Shown here piece after piece: positions 12,792 through 38,999 of a DNA stretch of 40,938 nt. Source of the DNA: Candidatus Neomarinimicrobiota bacterium (GTDB lineage Bacteria; Fidelibacterota; Marinisomatia; Marinisomatales; S15-B10). The position numbers were made by a program, and so were the translations under genes. The stretch's first letter is position 1; each line of letters starts with the position of its first letter. The notes under the pieces are model-generated. The model saw only the letters and a list, made by a program, of their open reading frames with translations, did no database searches and was not told where the DNA came from. The stretch is taken from contig JAZGBI010000086.1 in assembly GCA_036476315.1 (NCBI GenBank), positions 1 to 40,938 of the forward strand, given 5' to 3'.

Positions 12792-13046
12792 TCACCCGTT
12801 TTGGCTGGGTCCCGATCCATTCTGGCTTGGTCCTGATCCATTCTGGCTGGGTCCCGATCCATTCTGGCTTGGTCCTGATCCATTCTGGCTTGGTCCTGAT
12901 CCGTTCTGGCTGGGTCCCGACCCGTTCTGGCTTGGACCTGAATCAAAGGTCTGAGAGGGATCGGTTGACAGTGGGTTCGCGAAATCGGAGCATGCCGTAG
13001 CTCCGAACAGTAGCGCCGATAGTACCACGATGATTCTTTTCTTCAT
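12792..13046 (-). CDS. Small lipoprotein with seven-residue tandem repeats
   Basis: The ATG at 13046 has a near-perfect Shine-Dalgarno (AAAGGAGG, spacer about 5), so I prefer it to the ATG 24 bases upstream. The 84-residue product has a lipoprotein-type signal (KKRIIVVLSALLFGATAC, Cys about 19). A short linker follows, then seven exact copies of SGPSQNG up to the stop codon. The repeat is low-complexity and presumably an extended flexible tail on the cell surface. The DNA unit is 21 bp, so copy changes keep frame. I know no family for it. Confidence 0.75.
   Translation of the reverse strand: MKKRIIVVLSALLFGATACSDFANPLSTDPSQTFDSGPSQNGSGPSQNGSGPSQNGSGPSQNGSGPSQNGSGPSQNGSGPSQNG
12796..12947. 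repeat. Seven 21-bp tandem repeats within the lipoprotein gene
   Basis: The units come in two spellings on the plus strand, CTGGGTCCCGA (A) and CTTGGTCCTGA (B), in the order A B A B B A B-like. The encoded peptide is identical in all copies, so the differences are synonymous. The alternation suggests growth by 42-bp steps. Confidence 0.85.
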
Positions 13047-25507: not shown

Positions 25508-25600
25508 GAATGTTCATGTGTTCAAGAAATATGAAAAAGGAAAAACCCTCAAGACCCAAAAACTGGAACACTTGAATACCTTAACACTTTAACACCTCAT
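25508..25600. repeat. Octamer array between oah and dch
   Basis: On the minus strand, from about 25598 down to 25545, seven consecutive 8-bp units fit RGTGTTNA with drift: GGTGTTAA, AGTGTTAA, GGTATTCA, AGTGTTCC, AGTTTTTG, GGTCTTGA, GGGTTTTT. About 20 bases to the left, at 25509-25524, two units face the other way (AATGTTCA, TGTGTTCA). The gap between oah and dch is 291 bases; apart from the array I see nothing there. Confidence 0.7.
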
Positions 25601-25725
25601 CCTTGGCGTTCTTCTCCCTCCGTAGGAGACCCCACGGGTCACAGGGACTCCCTTTGAGGTGGCGAATCTCATCTCAAGATCCTTTGGAAGATCCTGTGGA
25701 TAAACCAGCCTTACAGGTTGAATCC

Positions 25726-28134: not shown

Positions 28135-28175
28135 TACTACACCCTATTGCTCTAACAGTTAAACATTCCACACAT

Positions 28176-31129: not shown

Positions 31130-32832
31130 CTTTCAAGCCTCACTACGTAAACATCATCCCTTATTTTCTCTTCCCCACCGTACAGACTTTCGATTTCTGC
31201 TTTGAATGTCTCCCCGATCACATTGGGTGCCAGTTTCATCGAAGGGGTAAGTTCGTCCCGTTCAAGTGAGAGTTCCCGGTCCAGGAGCATGACAGCACCG
31301 GGACGTTCATACGGAACGTCCATGGCTCTGTTCAATCCATTAAGGCAAAGAGACAGGCAGGATGCCAGTTGATCCATACTCGTGGGTCGCCGGCATTCCT
31401 CACTCAGATCGTTCGGGTCGGGCATTTTGTCAAACAAAGCGCTGTTTGGAAAAAGGAGTACCACAGGATAGTTCTCCCCACTTCCCGCAACATACACATG
31501 CGACAGATAGCAGCAGGTTCCGGCTATACGGTTCTCAATTTCCGCGGGAAACACTTTTTCCGCATTGCTCAGTTTGAAAATTCGATCTTTCCTGGAAATG
31601 AGGCGCAGCCCATCAGGCGTGAAGTCTCCCACGTCACCCGTGTAGAACCACCCATCTTCGGTGAGGACCTTCTTCGTCGCCTCTTCATTTTTGTAATATC
31701 CTTTCATTACGTTGGGACCGGCGACCATGATTTCATTTTCGGGTGAAAGCTTTATCCGAACGCCTGGGATGGCGGTCCCAACCAGGCCAGGTTTTCTTTT
31801 CCTGGATGGATCGGTCACTGTAGAACAGGGAGACGTTTCTGTCAAACCCCATCCTTCAATGACAGGAATCCCACGGGATTCAAACATATCCGAAATGGTT
31901 TGGGGCAGGGGAGCAGCTGCCGTGAAGATGAACCTGAGACCCGTCCTGAAAATCAGTTCCTCAACCTCGGAATCCTCCATGGCGCGTGAGGTAAGTTCCT
32001 GATATATTTTCGGCACACTGAAAAAGACGGTGGGCTTAACCTCCCGCCAGTTCTCCACCAGCAATCCGGTGTCCTTTCCGAAGCCGTGTTCCAGGGAAAA
32101 GAGAGCACCGTTCGTGATGGCAGCAAACATTTCAAAGATGCCACCAAAACTGTGATGCCACGGAAGGTATGAAAGGAAACGGTCTTCCTCTGAAATACTC
32201 CACAAAACCTTCATGGCGGCCTGCTGCGAAAGAATATTGCCGTGGGTGAGCATGACGCATTTGGGAGTCCCCATGGTGCCTGATGTGAACATCATCAGGG
32301 TAACCGTGTCCGGGTCAAGATGGAACGCGAGACCGCCACCTTTGTCATCCCGGGGAACGAGTAATTCCGAGAAGGGGATGAGATTCGCAATATGCTTTCC
32401 TTCAACAGGGTCAAAATGGAAGATCGCTTTCAGATTCAATTCCTCTTCGATGCGATCCAGTTGACCCTGATCGGACACAGCCAGAAAATCGGCGTCACAG
32501 AACTCGACGAGCCGACTGGCAGTGTCTTTCGGGTATCCCGCAAAGATGGGAACAGCGACACCTCCCGATGCCATGACGGCAAGCTCCATCTGGAGCATCT
32601 CGAGACGGTTTCGCGAGAAAATCGCCATCCTGTCGCCAATGTTGAACCCAAGGCGTGAGAGATTCCGGGAAATACTATCGATTGAACCGTAGAAATCCCC
32701 CCACATCATGGGCATATAACCTTTCCCTCTATTCTCCTGGTAGATGGCCCTGCTCTTGAATTGCGAAGCATTTTCCTTCAGCATGGTGGCAATATTGGGA
32801 GAAAACTCCGGAAGTTTCTGGGGTGAGGACAA
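31126..32832 (-). CDS. AMP-forming acyl-CoA ligase
   Basis: The ORF is open to 32940, but its first 36 codons are repeat-array DNA (IINNQLSIINNQL). I place the start at TTG 32832 (568 residues) or ATG 32784 (552), neither with a good ribosome site. Adenylation motifs: MFTSGTMGTPKCVMLTHGN (A3), GWGLTETSPC (A5), YTGDVGDFTPDGL (A7), RKDRIFKLSNAEKVFPAEIE (A8) and LTPSMKL (catalytic Lys). The pattern looks like long-chain acyl-CoA synthetases more than benzoate-CoA ligase. It lies between bcrD and the second dehydratase set, which suggests activation of an aromatic or hydroxy acid. The substrate is open. Confidence 0.85.
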   Translation of the reverse strand: MSSPQKLPEFSPNIATMLKENASQFKSRAIYQENRGKGYMPMMWGDFYGSIDSISRNLSRLGFNIGDRMAIFSRNRLEMLQMELAVMASGGVAVPIFAGYPKDTASRLVEFCDADFLAVSDQGQLDRIEEELNLKAIFHFDPVEGKHIANLIPFSELLVPRDDKGGGLAFHLDPDTVTLMMFTSGTMGTPKCVMLTHGNILSQQAAMKVLWSISEEDRFLSYLPWHHSFGGIFEMFAAITNGALFSLEHGFGKDTGLLVENWREVKPTVFFSVPKIYQELTSRAMEDSEVEELIFRTGLRFIFTAAAPLPQTISDMFESRGIPVIEGWGLTETSPCSTVTDPSRKRKPGLVGTAIPGVRIKLSPENEIMVAGPNVMKGYYKNEEATKKVLTEDGWFYTGDVGDFTPDGLRLISRKDRIFKLSNAEKVFPAEIENRIAGTCCYLSHVYVAGSGENYPVVLLFPNSALFDKMPDPNDLSEECRRPTSMDQLASCLSLCLNGLNRAMDVPYERPGAVMLLDRELSLERDELTPSMKLAPNVIGETFKAEIESLYGGEEKIRDDVYVVRLER

Positions 32833-33017
32833 TTGATTATTGATTATTGACAATTGATTATTGATTATTTGAAAACCGGAAACGGGAGAATTGGAGAAAT
32901 GGAGGAATGGAGAACTGGAGAAAATGATGCGTGAGGACAATTGATTATTGACAATTGATTATTGATCATTTGAAAACCCGAGACGGGAGAGTTGGAGGAA
33001 TGGAGAAAATGATGCGT
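32826..33017. repeat. Composite direct repeat of two blocks with 7- and 8-bp units
   Basis: Block 1 (32826-32932) and block 2 (32933-33017) both start GAGGACAATTGATTATTG and end GAGAAAATGATGCGT. Inside each, a 7-bp array (ATTGATT, ATTGACA) is followed by an 8-bp array (AATTGGAG, AAATGGAG, GAATGGAG, AACTGGAG). Block 2 is a shortened copy. The blocks lie directly upstream of the ligase and supply the false N-terminal extension of its ORF. Confidence 0.85.
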
Positions 33018-33029
33018 AATGCATGACTG

Positions 33030-33268
33030 CCAACTGGTGACTGGTTCACTGGTTACTTGATACTTGATCCCCCGACATGCGTCGGGATTTCGCTTTGCTC
33101 AACTCCGCTCAACTTGATACTTGATACTCGATACTCGATACTTGCTAATTCGGTGAAATCAGGACATGGTTTACACTGCCGACTGCCAACTGGTGACTGG
33201 TGACTGGTTCACTGGTTACTTGATCCTTGATACTTGATCCTTGTTACTTGACCCTTGATACTTGGTTC
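33030..33268. repeat. Heptamer array (ACTTGAT / ACTGGTG) at the 3' end of bcrD
   Basis: On the plus strand there are runs of 7-bp units such as ACTGGTG, ACTGGTT, ACTTGAT, CCTTGAT, ACTTGAC and ACTCGAT, in two stretches around 33030-33150 and 33180-33268. A short palindromic piece (33068-33110, CCCCGACATGCGTCGGGATT) separates them. The right stretch encodes the last 19 codons and the stop of bcrD. Confidence 0.85.
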
Positions 33269-34081
33269 TTCCTGCCTGAGTCTCAGGTGCCGGAATCCTC
33301 CCCACAGAGCGGCGCCTATGGCACCGGCTAACGGAGAATCTCTGTGAGACACGATTTCCAGATCCATATTCCTGGAGTCTGCCACTTCCCTGATGGCGGC
33401 CACCAAACCCTCATCCTGGGCCATTCCTCCCGTCAAGACCACAGGCGACTCCGCCTTCAATTTTGACAGCAATTTCACCGCGCGAACCGCTATAGTCAGG
33501 TGAATACCTTTTATGATATCTTCAATCTTCACCCCCCTTGCCACCATATTGATAACGTCCGTTTCCGCCAGAACGGCACAGACGCCACTGGGTCGTTCAG
33601 GGTCCTTCGACTGGAGAGACAGGGATCCCACCTCACTCAAGTTTAGTCCCAGATACCGGGTGATATTCTCCAGAAACTGGCCCGAACCGGAAGCACACTG
33701 GCCCGTCATGGTGTAGCTCAACACGCGGGCATCGTCACCGACTTTGATGGCTCTGCAGAACAGGGCGCCCAGATCAACCACCGTTTTCACCCGGGGGAAG
33801 CAGAAATGGCCCCCCTTTGCATGTGTTGTCATACCGTAGAAATGACCTGTTTTCTGCTTCACAAGCTCGCCTTCTCCCGTGGATGAGACATAGTCCAGGT
33901 CGCGGTATGTCAGGTCGTGGCGATTCAGAATCGCCCGCGTAGCGGTTTCAATGACCGTCCGGGGGTTTCGCTTATGTATTTTGTCATTGGACTTTTCCAG
34001 AATTGTTGGACTGTCGCTATAGTCCATAAGGACCGTCTTCACATAGCTGCTTCCTACATCGATTCCGAGTGTATGGATCAT
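33209..34081 (-). CDS. bcrD: Benzoyl-CoA reductase subunit D (ATPase)
   Basis: A 290-residue ASKHA ATPase of BcrD/BadG/BzdQ type. It has GIDVGSSYVKTV, VVDLGALFCRAIKV, the cluster cysteines in MTGQCASGSGQFL and PSGVCAVLAETDV, and VVLTGGMAQDEGLVAAI. With BcrA it forms the electron-activating module that couples ATP hydrolysis to benzoyl-CoA reduction. The order bcrC-bcrB-bcrA-bcrD matches Thauera. The last 19 residues (EPSIKGQ...) are translated from the heptamer array, so the native C-terminus ends near RHLRLRQE and the stop was replaced. An inverted octamer array and a four-helix-bundle gene separate it from bcrA. Confidence 0.9.
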   Translation of the reverse strand: MIHTLGIDVGSSYVKTVLMDYSDSPTILEKSNDKIHKRNPRTVIETATRAILNRHDLTYRDLDYVSSTGEGELVKQKTGHFYGMTTHAKGGHFCFPRVKTVVDLGALFCRAIKVGDDARVLSYTMTGQCASGSGQFLENITRYLGLNLSEVGSLSLQSKDPERPSGVCAVLAETDVINMVARGVKIEDIIKGIHLTIAVRAVKLLSKLKAESPVVLTGGMAQDEGLVAAIREVADSRNMDLEIVSHRDSPLAGAIGAALWGGFRHLRLRQEEPSIKGQVTRIKYQGSSNQ

Positions 34082-34087
34082 TTCTCA

Positions 34088-34127
34088 GGTGTTTATGTGT
34101 TCACGTGTTAGGGTGTTCAGGTAATGA
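34088..34127 (+). repeat. Inverted octamer array at the bcrD start
   Basis: In exact 8-bp phase on the plus strand: GGTGTTTA, TGTGTTCA, CGTGTTAG, GGTGTTCA, GGTAATGA. This is opposite to the other arrays. The 13-mer GTGTTCACGTGTT (34097-34109) is the perfect complement of 34664-34676 on the other side of the four-helix-bundle gene. Confidence 0.8.
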
Positions 34128-34610
34128 GTCTTCCGATTGGACTTCCACATTTATGAAATCTTCAGGAATATCCTTCGACTTGTCTGTACTGCCCTTCTGT
34201 TTGTATGGTTCGATCGGTTCACGGACGGCGCCTGATTTCTTCTCAAGTGTTCTATCTACATACTTCAAGAGGCCAAGTGTCATGTTTCTCACCTCATCCG
34301 CCAAATCCTGGACTTCTCTGACTCGACTGAATGAGACGTATTGTTGATCAATAACCACATACAGCAAGCTCTTAACCTCCGTGGTTGAACTCTGGGATAT
34401 GTCTAGGAACCTTATGAAATCCCTCTGATGAAACCTTGCAAATCCTTCGGCAATGTTGGACATCGCTGAAACTGCCGCACTTCGGAGCTGATCTCTCAGT
34501 TTGTAATCTCTCGACAAAGCACCCTGTTTGCCCATATGGTAAGCTTCTTTGACCAATTCTCTTGCCTTCTGTCAACACACCAAATCTTCGAGTTTATCCA
34601 CTTTCGACAT
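34101..34610 (-). pseudogene. Four-helix-bundle (23S rRNA IVP-like) gene with an in-frame TGA
   Basis: From ATG 34610 the frame reads MSKVDKLEDLVC, then TGA (34574-34572), then QKARELVKEAYHMG and on to a stop at 34101. The family consensus has WQKAREL here, so TGG became TGA. The rest is a typical four-helix-bundle protein: LRDQLRSAAVSAMSNIAEGF, FIRFLDISQSSTTEVKSLLY and LADEVRNMTLGLLKYVDRT. A 45-residue hydrophilic tail runs into the octamer array. Elsewhere the genome uses TGA as stop, so recoding is unlikely. A shorter product could start at TTG 34556. It sits in the bcr operon between bcrA and bcrD, flanked by inverted arrays. It is related to Avd of diversity-generating retroelements, but no reverse transcriptase is present. 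Confidence 0.8.
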
Positions 34611-34648
34611 GATGACCCTTTCAGCTGTATCGACCTCACCCGGTTGAA

Positions 34649-34691
34649 AGACCTAAACACTTGAACACGTGAACACCCGAACACTTCAACT
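34649..34691 (-). repeat. Octamer array after bcrA
   Basis: On the minus strand, starting at the bcrA stop: AGTGTTCG, GGTGTTCA, CGTGTTCA, AGTGTTTA, GGTCTTTC in exact 8-bp phase. It contains the 13-mer arm (34664-34676) that can pair with the array on the far side of the four-helix-bundle gene. Confidence 0.8.
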
Positions 34692-35978
34692 TCAACGCAT
34701 CCCAAGCAGCGCTGCTCCGAACGCTCCCATGAAAATGGAATCCGTATGGATGTTGATGGTAAGGCTTCCGTAGTTGTCTTTCATCATTCTCGATACATAA
34801 TTGACCACCGCCTGATTCCTGGCAACGCCTCCGGTGAAAGTGAATTCATTACTCACACCTCCCGATCGGGCCAGAAGGGAAAAAGCCCGTTGGACGATTG
34901 CCTGATGAAGCCCCGCCAGGATATTCTCCTGTTTCTCCCCGATATTGAGATATTCCCTCAACTCTGCCCCCGCGAAAACAGTGCAGGTGCTGCAAATATT
35001 GGTCTCATAGTCTGACAGAAGGGCCCGTGGCCCCAGTTCGCTCACGCTCATGTTGAGTTCATCAGCAATATACCCGAGATAGCGGCCACATCCCGCCGCG
35101 CACCGGTCATTCATCTGAAAACTGGTAACCAGGCCGTGTTCATCCACCTGAATCGCCTTGGTGTCCTGACCTCCAATATCGAGAACCGTTCTTGTCCCCG
35201 GAAAAATGGCATGTGCGCCAAGAGCGTGGCAGAGGATCTCTGACTTAATATGCTTCTCATCAAAGGGGAGAAGCTGCCTGCCGTAGCCTGTGCCCACGTA
35301 GTTCTCCGGGGTGAGATCCACTAGGGAGAATACCTCCAGATCTGCTTCGAGACTGTCCAGTAGACCGTTCTGTTGCTGGTCAAGGAACTTCACGGAATTC
35401 ATTACCATTTCGGAGAAATCGAACTGAAGCATTTCATTCTCAACGGGAATTATTGAAGTATCATACAGGGCCAGCAGTGAATCGAATACTCGGGGATCCA
35501 GTGACTCAATTTTGTTAAGATAATGATGACTGAACACATCCCGGAAGAACTGGTAAGCGGTGCTGATGCGGTCTGAGAGAAATTCGTCCCTGATGTCTCT
35601 TTTTATGTCTGAAAAGATCCGGGACAGCTTAGCCGGGATGTCACTGCCGTCTGTTTCGTCACTCTTTTCTTGCGCCAGGTTCAACATATTCCTGACCAAA
35701 AGGTCGAACCGGCGGCTGAACCTCAGGTACCGGAAAGCAGTCTCAATCCTGTCCAGCAATTCCTGAAGTTCCGCTGAGTTGCGGTTCTTTTTCAACAGGC
35801 CCTGGCGCAGCAGGTAAAACCGGGCATCGTATTCGGCTCCCAGCCTTGCAATGTCTGCTGCAATTTTATAGTTTGCCCGGGTATTGGTAATCCCCCGGCC
35901 GATGATATCGCCCTCTCCATCCACCATAACTGCCTTGGAAGTGGTGGAGCCGAGATCGATGCCCAGATAGTACTTCAA
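34692..35978 (-). CDS. bcrA: Benzoyl-CoA reductase subunit A (ATPase)
   Basis: A 428-residue protein, the long BcrA/BadF/BzdP type with an insertion of about 180 residues between the two halves of the ATPase fold. It has GIDLGSTTSKAVMVDGEG at the start, VLDIGGQDTKAI (about 265), cluster cysteines in MNDRCAAGCGRYL and ICSTCTVFAGAEL, and FTGGVARNQAVV. It starts with TTG in TTGA overlap with the bcrB stop, with GGGGGTG as ribosome site. With BcrD it binds one [4Fe-4S] cluster and hydrolyses ATP while passing ferredoxin electrons to BcrBC. Confidence 0.93.
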   Translation of the reverse strand: MKYYLGIDLGSTTSKAVMVDGEGDIIGRGITNTRANYKIAADIARLGAEYDARFYLLRQGLLKKNRNSAELQELLDRIETAFRYLRFSRRFDLLVRNMLNLAQEKSDETDGSDIPAKLSRIFSDIKRDIRDEFLSDRISTAYQFFRDVFSHHYLNKIESLDPRVFDSLLALYDTSIIPVENEMLQFDFSEMVMNSVKFLDQQQNGLLDSLEADLEVFSLVDLTPENYVGTGYGRQLLPFDEKHIKSEILCHALGAHAIFPGTRTVLDIGGQDTKAIQVDEHGLVTSFQMNDRCAAGCGRYLGYIADELNMSVSELGPRALLSDYETNICSTCTVFAGAELREYLNIGEKQENILAGLHQAIVQRAFSLLARSGGVSNEFTFTGGVARNQAVVNYVSRMMKDNYGSLTINIHTDSIFMGAFGAALLGMR

Positions 35979-37297: not shown

Positions 37298-37326
37298 TTA
37301 TCCCATTCACGTTAGACACCTGACTT

Positions 37327-38517
37327 TCATTCCCACAGTTTGATAGAGTCGGAAAACGTACCCACCTGTTCCTTAATGACCTTGAACTGACCCAGGTTTT
37401 CGTGATACTGAAAGCTCAAGTGCTTCATGTGACCCCTGTCAAGGGCCTTTTCGAGTTCGGGTTGGTCGAGGAGGGCAGGGTCGCAAAAACTGGGGGCGCA
37501 GAAAATGACGCCGTCAGCCCCGCGCTTTCTTGCCAGCTCTGCCAGATGAATCCCTTTTGAACCGTTCCCATCATAAACACTCGACGAAAATGTGGCTTGG
37601 CGAACGTACGCTTCTGCAAGGGCTTGAAGAGGATCTTCGGAAGCATCGTCAATATCACCATCGATCCAGAAACAGCCAAGTTGAAAGTCGTCTCCCACGA
37701 TATAACACCCTGCATTTTCGATAGTCCTTATCAGGCCCATAGGGGGTTGTTCACAGAACGCTCCCGAAATAATCACCCGGATTCTGTCTTCCGGCTGGTG
37801 GTCCACCTCCCTCAAATGCGCCATAATCCCGGTCAAAAAATCGTTATGTTCCTCTGGATCCATCACATACCCGGCTCGCAGGACAGCGTAAAAATCGGTC
37901 GCCGATATTTTCCACGGTTCCAAACTGCGTCCCTCAATAAATTGATTCACAAGGCGGCGATTCTCATTGTAGAGGGAAATGGAATGATTCAGCTTCTCCG
38001 CGGATTCCTCCGCACCGCTAAGTTCATGCAGTTGATCCTGGAACTCACGGAGACTCTCAGTCAGAAACTTGCCCCCCACATCCGAGCTGAAATTCTGCGG
38101 AAAGTCCAAATATTGAATGAACCTGTCAGGAAACTCGATTCGGAAAATGCCGGATAGATTCCGGATCACATCACAGATCGCCGGAAAGATAAACCCGTCA
38201 AAATCGTCAAAATGTCCGTCCAGGGCCATCTCGATCACACTTCTGGGAAGGTGGCAGATATACGACTGAAAATAGGCGTCTCCTTTCACCACCTGAATCC
38301 GGTCGCCACCACCGAATATGCCCACGGGCAGCATTCCAGCGGCGTGGATGATTTCTCTGGGCACGTAGATGGGAAAGTAGCCAATAACCCGGCGCGTGGG
38401 ATCTCTCTTTTTCCACTTGGAAACATATCCGAAATGGAGATCCCCTAGAAGTTTCCGAGCCTTCTCCAATAATCTTTCAAGCTCCCGGGAGGTCTTTCTG
38501 TCAGCTACATTTCCCAT
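37327..38517 (-). CDS. bcrC: Benzoyl-CoA reductase subunit C
   Basis: A 396-residue BcrC/BadD/BzdN-type subunit. Diagnostic are IGYFPIYVPREIIHAAGMLP, GGGDRIQVVKGDAYFQSYIC, FDGFIFPAICDVIRNLSGIF and ISGAFCEQPPMGLIRTIENA. It forms the catalytic heterodimer with BcrB. It is the first structural gene of the operon, 41 bases after marR with an octamer array between them. The reductase is therefore of the ATP-dependent class I, not the tungsten class II (BamB) found in many strict anaerobes. Confidence 0.94.
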   Translation of the reverse strand: MGNVADRKTSRELERLLEKARKLLGDLHFGYVSKWKKRDPTRRVIGYFPIYVPREIIHAAGMLPVGIFGGGDRIQVVKGDAYFQSYICHLPRSVIEMALDGHFDDFDGFIFPAICDVIRNLSGIFRIEFPDRFIQYLDFPQNFSSDVGGKFLTESLREFQDQLHELSGAEESAEKLNHSISLYNENRRLVNQFIEGRSLEPWKISATDFYAVLRAGYVMDPEEHNDFLTGIMAHLREVDHQPEDRIRVIISGAFCEQPPMGLIRTIENAGCYIVGDDFQLGCFWIDGDIDDASEDPLQALAEAYVRQATFSSSVYDGNGSKGIHLAELARKRGADGVIFCAPSFCDPALLDQPELEKALDRGHMKHLSFQYHENLGQFKVIKEQVGTFSDSIKLWE

Positions 38518-38522
38518 TTACG

Positions 38523-38567
38523 TCACTTGAACGCTCTAACACCTGAACACTTTAACACTCAAACACT
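38523..38567 (-). repeat. Octamer array between marR and bcrC
   Basis: On the minus strand: AGTGTTTG, AGTGTTAA, AGTGTTCA, GGTGTTAG, AGCGTTCA, AGTGACGT in exact 8-bp phase. The first unit contains the marR stop codon and the last lies next to the ATG of bcrC. Confidence 0.8.
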
Positions 38568-38999
38568 CTCTTTCTGTCCATTGGCCCTATCCCATATGCG
38601 GTTCAACATACTCCTAAGGGTCTTCCTTTCTGTGTGGGAAAGAACGCTCATAACGTCCATATCGAGATTCGTGGCGATTCCGTCTATGGTATTCAGGATA
38701 CTTTTCCCTTTTGTTGTCAGATATATGTTAATCACCCGCCGATCCGAGGAGACTCGATGCCGCTCCACCAGACCGTCCCTCTCCAGACGATCCACTAGGC
38801 CTGTGGTGGCCGGGTTATCAAGAAAGACTCTCCTGGCGATCTGAGTGAGAGACAATCCATCTTTGTAAGCAAGAGCACTTAAGACGGCGTGCTGTGACGC
38901 TGTGATACCTATATCCGAAAGTTCATTGTCCAGGGCACGCTTCATCCCGCGGGCTGCCCGGACCAGAAGAAAGCCCATACTGTGTTCAAGCTTGGTCAT
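38559..38999 (-). CDS. MarR-family transcriptional regulator
   Basis: A 146-residue winged-helix protein. It has GITASQHAVLSALAYKDGLS, LTQIARRVFLDNPATTGLVD (recognition helix), RLERDGLVERHRVSSDRR (wing) and a C-terminal dimer helix. It heads the aromatic operon and is therefore likely to control it. In Rhodopseudomonas the MarR-type BadR controls benzoyl-CoA reductase genes; this protein may play the same part with benzoyl-CoA or another thioester as effector, which is inference. Its own promoter carries three evenly spaced repeats downstream of the -10, consistent with autorepression. Confidence 0.9.
   Translation of the reverse strand: MTKLEHSMGFLLVRAARGMKRALDNELSDIGITASQHAVLSALAYKDGLSLTQIARRVFLDNPATTGLVDRLERDGLVERHRVSSDRRVINIYLTTKGKSILNTIDGIATNLDMDVMSVLSHTERKTLRSMLNRIWDRANGQKESV

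Follow-up and report, generated by a model that had tools for sequence, protein, structure and literature searches.

An IVP-family four-helix-bundle gene framed by inverted octamer arrays in a bcr operon, and its relation to dispersed gene-less array pairs

Proteins of the IVP family are already known from the intervening sequences (IVSs) of rRNA and from Avd (PMC4990558, PMC10053308), and one solved relative is a toroidal homopentamer (PMC4990558). Here, an IVP gene is described between two inverted octamer arrays inside a benzoyl-CoA reductase (bcr) operon. This cassette has in common with the 23S rRNA IVSs (PMC4990558) the protein family, complementary ends capable of forming a stem, and the occurrence of decaying ORFs; it differs in lying between protein genes, in having a stem made of short tandem arrays, and in having gene-less dispersed relatives. 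With Avd of the diversity-generating retroelements it shares the fold, the solved entries 4dwl and 2gsc (Avd, IVP family) having five chains in each; in contrast to those retroelements, it lies in a genome without a match to reverse transcriptase. The closest parallel in layout is the RAYT/REPIN system (PMC3116915), in which a single protein gene is flanked by a repeat, the repeat is dispersed as extragenic hairpin-forming inverted doublets of ~70–110 bp, plus singlets, and the type of repeat is tied to the protein lineage. All of these have counterparts in the cassette, but its protein is a PF05635 four-helix bundle and not a Y1 (HUH) tyrosine transposase, its ends are tandem arrays of 7–8-nt units and not REP palindromes, and its gene is sense-oriented inside operons. 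As for MITEs and insertion sequences, miniature gene-less copies have ends in common with a gene-bearing copy, although the gene-bearing copy here encodes only a PF05635 protein and no recognised transposase.

Arrays of this kind have been reported several times, with their function left open. In two Xanthomonas genomes, arrays of the heptamer GGGAATC form 70 and 75 convergent pairs, and in Nostoc the unit is GGGGA(C/T)T (PMC4692102). Like the arrays described here, these are built of heptamers, mostly four units, and lie in intergenic regions near stop codons as convergent pairs; the main text of that study, however, contains neither xcc0516 nor a four-helix-bundle gene, and leaves the function of the arrays open. 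The TAACTGA repeats of Beggiatoaceae (PMC4679880) are heptamer direct repeats located just upstream of start codons, as are the downstream arrays of the cassettes, but they are mostly solo and in one orientation, with no gene cassette between arrays. Among open-access papers, none linking IVP genes to such arrays was found.

The window (the whole stretch of DNA analysed, 40,938 nucleotides from a Candidatus Neomarinimicrobiota genome, G000) has 610 nt between its bcrA-like and bcrD-like genes, and this interval contains a PF05635/TIGR02436 gene and two opposed octamer arrays. The features of the window which are referred to below are:

34692..35978, minus strand: upstream host gene, benzoyl-CoA reductase subunit A-like (bcrA); TIGR02259, 442.6 bits, cut-off of 578 not reached
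34648..34690: upstream octamer array (5′ of the gene), AACACNNN on the plus strand and GTGTTNNN on the sense strand
34101..34610, minus strand: four-helix-bundle gene (23S rRNA IVP/Avd-like), identified by PF05635, TIGR02436 and AlphaFold/Foldseek
34101..34556, minus strand: longest intact ORF of the IVP gene, with a TTG start
about 34085..34122: downstream octamer array (3′ of the gene), inverted, GTGTTNNN on the plus strand
33209..34081, minus strand: downstream host gene, benzoyl-CoA reductase subunit D-like (bcrD); TIGR02261, 281.9 bits, just under the cut-off of 312.85
38517..38574: solo array of the same octamer, gene-less, upstream of bcrC
25554..25603: solo array of the same octamer, gene-less, further down the cluster
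37298..37326: empty bcrC–bcrB junction, where the relative G011 has an IVP cassette with the window's octamer
28135..28175: empty junction, where the relatives G011 and G024 have an IVP cassette with GGTATAT-type arrays

The NCBIfam cut-offs were passed by bcrB and bcrC and missed by bcrA and bcrD. The octamer unit comprises a constant pentamer and three variable bases (GTGTTNNN), and each array consists of 4–5 such octamers, head-to-tail. The upstream array starts within a few nucleotides of the bcrA-like stop codon, the downstream array stops a few nucleotides short of the bcrD-like ATG, and the IVP reading frame terminates within the downstream array. An earlier note on this DNA, made from the letters alone, had described an IVP/Avd-like gene framed by oppositely oriented octamer arrays, and both the sequence and the matches to PF05635 (E 1.8e-29) and TIGR02436 (E 2.5e-26) bear this out. 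The 13-mer which it had singled out, GTGTTCACGTGTT at 34097–34109, does have its exact complement, AACACGTGAACAC, at 34664–34676. These lie within arms of 34 nt (34089–34122 and 34651–34684) that are 79% complementary and constitute the longest inverted repeat in the window.

The AlphaFold model of the window IVP has four helices, and in Foldseek it superposes on Xcc0516 (TM 0.92 by target), BT_0352 and Avd (entries 2gsc, 2rld and 4dwl). A point absent from the earlier note is an in-frame TGA at codon 13 (34572–34574), which replaces a conserved Trp; therefore, the window copy is probably decaying.

Comparison with relatives indicates that the gene was inserted, as had been supposed from the window alone. 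The bcr operon is syntenic in five relatives. The window, G011 and G024 all have the bcrA–bcrD cassette, whereas in G026 and G014 the site is empty, the two genes overlapping as ATGA, and in G019 there is an IVP-free gap of ~110 nt (sequences read directly in all three). Since relatives have empty sites, the gene is an inserted cassette. Other junctions differ too: at bcrC–bcrB, G011 has a cassette with the window's octamer where the window has 29 nt, and a third junction, empty in the window, is occupied in G011 and G024 by a cassette with a different unit. Across the nuo operon, the DNA of G011 is 91–95% identical to that of G024, yet one cassette is missing from G024 and another is internally deleted. 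Relatives have anything from 0 to 26 IVP copies, many of them broken or containing stops. When filled and empty sites (bcr, nuo) were compared, neither a target-site duplication nor sharp ends could be defined; movement itself was not seen. In the nuo operon of G011, three IVP cassettes lie within ~10 kb (L049, contig C46).

The octamer arrays extend well beyond the cassette. In G000, the octamer-array pattern has 77 matches, as against 0 for the reversed pattern, and these merge into 35 arrays, including solo arrays. All 12 pairs of arrays that are less than 700 nt apart are convergent. Eleven of these 12 are gene-less, with a spacer of 11–77 nt, and the twelfth is the window cassette, the sole pair with an IVP gene. 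At least four of the pairs are wedged between a stop codon and the following start. Several of the spacers are homologous at unrelated sites (four spacer pairs; 0 of 300 shuffles), which implies copying to new places. A similar picture is seen in Ramlibacter cellulosilyticus, which has one IVP gene, at carA–carB, and in which 9 of 9 further array sites that were read are gene-less convergent pairs; these nine rest on sequence reading, the GGGANTN pattern giving 16 matches against 22 for its reversed control. Thus, as for REPINs, the flanking repeat is dispersed as inverted doublets in G000 (12/12) and in Ramlibacter (9/9). Three octamer hairpins lying within 6 kb in G000 (L234, contig C42) have common flanks, resembling AAGAACACCAAGGA and GGCTGAAATCATTAGAGTGTC, and look nested in a larger repeat. 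Gene-less array–array hairpins also occur beside IVP loci in other phyla (L113 and L152).

Further copies of the array–gene–array layout, which the earlier note had proposed looking for, proved to be many. All ten IVP loci of G000 are flanked by inverted arrays of short words, each locus having its own word, although some of these are weak traces only. To quantify this, the upstream flank of each copy was scored against the reverse-complemented downstream flank, the flanks of different copies serving as the control. In an order-level set (n = 52), the score was 15.4 for flanks of the same copy and 10.0 for mismatched pairs; in a multi-phylum set (n = 72; Planctomycetes, Proteobacteria, Chloroflexi, Acidobacteria, Bacteroidota, Firmicutes, Cyanobacteria and others), the corresponding scores were 22.8 and 10.1. 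A score of at least 14 was reached by 28 of the 52 order-level copies and 55 of the 72 multi-phylum copies, so that well-matching inverted flanks surround 83 of 124 IVP copies from many phyla, compared with 9 of 150 control genes. The framing by arrays is not due to chance, as judged by the mismatched flanks, the control genes and the reversed-pattern control. Also, arrays of period 7 or 8 number 0 in 329 kb of four IVP-free relatives and 6 in 312 kb of IVP-bearing relatives.

The units are mostly 7 nt in length, specific to the copy, and equal on both sides. Where both arrays of a copy are strong (54 copies), the upstream and downstream periods agree in 52 (7/7 in 45, 8/8 in five and 6/6 in two) and are discordant in two, and the mode of array length is 4–5 units. 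Of 69 copies, 64 have an upstream array whose sense strand is G-rich. Units are related where the IVPs are (Mantel test, 0/300): for example, L023 and L074 have IVPs related to that of the window and the same octamer, but at other junctions. The association between unit and protein is weak except at high similarity, and the most similar bin consists mostly of G011/G024 pairs, some of which may be one site with a flank too short for this to be recognised.

IVP genes lie mainly in line with their hosts. Within the order-level set, 46 of 51 copies have both neighbours oriented as the IVP gene is, and one has both neighbours opposed to it; the nine named loci for which both neighbours were identified by HMM are all sense. 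The claim of orientation rests on these two sets (46:1 and the nine), as longest-ORF calls of neighbours are not dependable in the GC-rich named genomes (34 sense, 7 antisense and 25 mixed where both neighbours were called). The named junctions include carA–carB, guaB–guaA (in three lineages), pgk–pyk, MoxR–DUF58, and an agmatine-deiminase-type/carbon-nitrogen-hydrolase pair. No IVP locus was found in rRNA by a rough scan for 23S motifs. The simplest account of the sense bias would be expression by read-through, and a step at the RNA level is also possible.

On balance, we lean towards reading the window cassette as the member that carries the gene in a dispersed family of inverted arrays; its IVP protein would read its own unit and aid the spread or persistence of the family. 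The proposed element would consist of two short head-to-tail arrays (octamers here, mostly heptamers elsewhere), convergent around a spacer. In the putative “master” form the spacer holds the PF05635 gene, and in the “miniature” form it is a short loop, giving a hairpin of about 75–135 bp. The master forms would sit within operons, as a rule after the stop codon of one gene and before the start region of the gene that follows, with the IVP gene reading in the host direction and presumably being expressed by read-through. What is seen directly in the sequences is that inverted arrays come in pairs with a common unit, that the unit is associated with the IVP subfamily, that some sites are empty, that the genes are mostly in sense orientation, and that gene-less copies with related spacers are dispersed; what we infer is binding of the arrays by IVP, and their spread through its action. 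A link between protein and array is suggested because related IVPs at different junctions share a word and because the word changes on both sides together. An IVP pentamer may recognise its unit at both ends of the element, and would do so as DNA, as the word is the same in both arrays only if the DNA is a duplex (or if opposite single strands are read). IVP could then promote the spread or persistence of array pairs, in the way proposed for RAYTs and REPINs. To our knowledge, the IVP protein has no known nuclease, recombinase or other recognised catalytic motif; thus, strand cutting would have to come from a host or trans-acting factor other than IVP. A Y1 transposase (PF01797) and a reverse transcriptase (PF00078) were considered as movers in G000 and rejected, as neither had a match in this MAG, which is 96% complete.

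The earlier note had suggested that the transcript could loop out the whole gene. In this case, a double-strand RNase (e.g. RNase III) would cut the stem formed by the arrays and release the IVP message from the bcr mRNA, as for the 23S rRNA IVSs, which belong with the same protein family and are excised by RNase III in Coxiella (PMC4990558). The minimum free energy RNA structure does pair the two window arrays (5+13+10 bp), the cassettes are sense-oriented within operons, and in Xanthomonas RNA-seq transcript starts and stops are commoner at heptamer arrays that form G-quadruplexes (PMC4692102). Loop-out is possible on structural grounds, but selection on RNA pairing is not supported. Mismatches between arrays were G-U and A-C in 58 and 63, 85 and 119, and 15 and 12 cases in three sets (pooled, 158 and 194); as there is no excess of G-U, it is not RNA pairing that preserves the match between the arrays, and maintenance of an RNA helix was rejected. 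The same lack of bias argues for recognition of DNA rather than RNA. Moreover, changes in the length and sequence of one array are uncompensated in the other between relatives, the folding z-score of the window is only −0.77, and many gene-less hairpins are located where nothing needs excision. The dispersed hairpins point to a repeat or mobile-element family rather than an intron-like splicing unit, and an intervening sequence acting at the RNA level is, in our judgement, unlikely.

We find it quite unlikely that the arrays are cis-regulatory hairpins (for mRNA stability, attenuation or G-quadruplex formation) with IVP as the binding regulator, immobile now and mostly inherited vertically. 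The tight placement between stop and start codons would suit this, as would the MoxR–DUF58 cassette, which eight genomes from six families share at this one junction. There, the IVPs have only 50–65% identity to the G000 copy, yet the unit is GTTAGAC on both sides in most genomes, and GTTAGGA on both sides in G019; the long-lived look of this cassette is compatible with a retained function and with mobility alike. Vertical inheritance does not sit well with the variable copy number and broken copies, with empty sites at 91–95% DNA identity, or with related spacers at unrelated sites. It is less probable still that the hairpins are moved by another enzyme (IS200-like or other transposase), with the IVP gene as a mere passenger. 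Miniature elements can use an enzyme encoded elsewhere, IVP proteins are without a recognised catalytic motif, and G011 and G024 do have Y1 transposases; but G000 has the octamer family despite lacking a Y1 match, the unit tracks the IVP subfamily, and across phyla it is IVP that is the gene within array pairs.

The dispersed array family with an IVP-bearing member, the reading which we prefer, differs from the described systems in the type of element: its layout works like that of RAYT/REPIN yet fails the defining protein feature. The same layout around relatives in many phyla suggests an overlooked kind of mobile element, predicted to reside inside central operons such as carAB, guaBA, nuo and bcr. 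PF05635/TIGR02436 genes are widespread and unexplained, and the link to arrays gives their proteins a probable nucleic-acid target; conversely, IVP becomes a probable partner for the reported heptamer arrays. Possibly, though short of probably, PF05635 proteins in general are the specificity factors of pan-bacterial mobile elements with inverted arrays of 7–8-nt units, whose movement would not depend on a recombinase of their own. In that case, the 23S rRNA IVSs and the heptamer arrays of Xanthomonas, Nostoc and Beggiatoaceae would be forms of one element. This would offer a possible origin for rRNA intervening sequences.

Other repeats were noted in the window. At 33026–33270 there are composite heptamer arrays with a drifting word (on the sense strand, CAAGTAT, CCAGTGA, GGCAGT); their core, CAAGTAACCAGTGAACCAGTNACCAG, occurs 11 times in the genome, twice here, and is also found upstream of the IVP locus L002. 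Tandem TTGATTA and GGAGAAT arrays lie at 32828–32970, with a 69-nt block repeated 101 nt apart. A tandem repeat of ~195 bp, in roughly seven copies that are 60–75% alike, occupies 384–1736, and a 21-bp tandem repeat, TGGCTGGGTCCCGATCCATTC, occupies 12794–12942.
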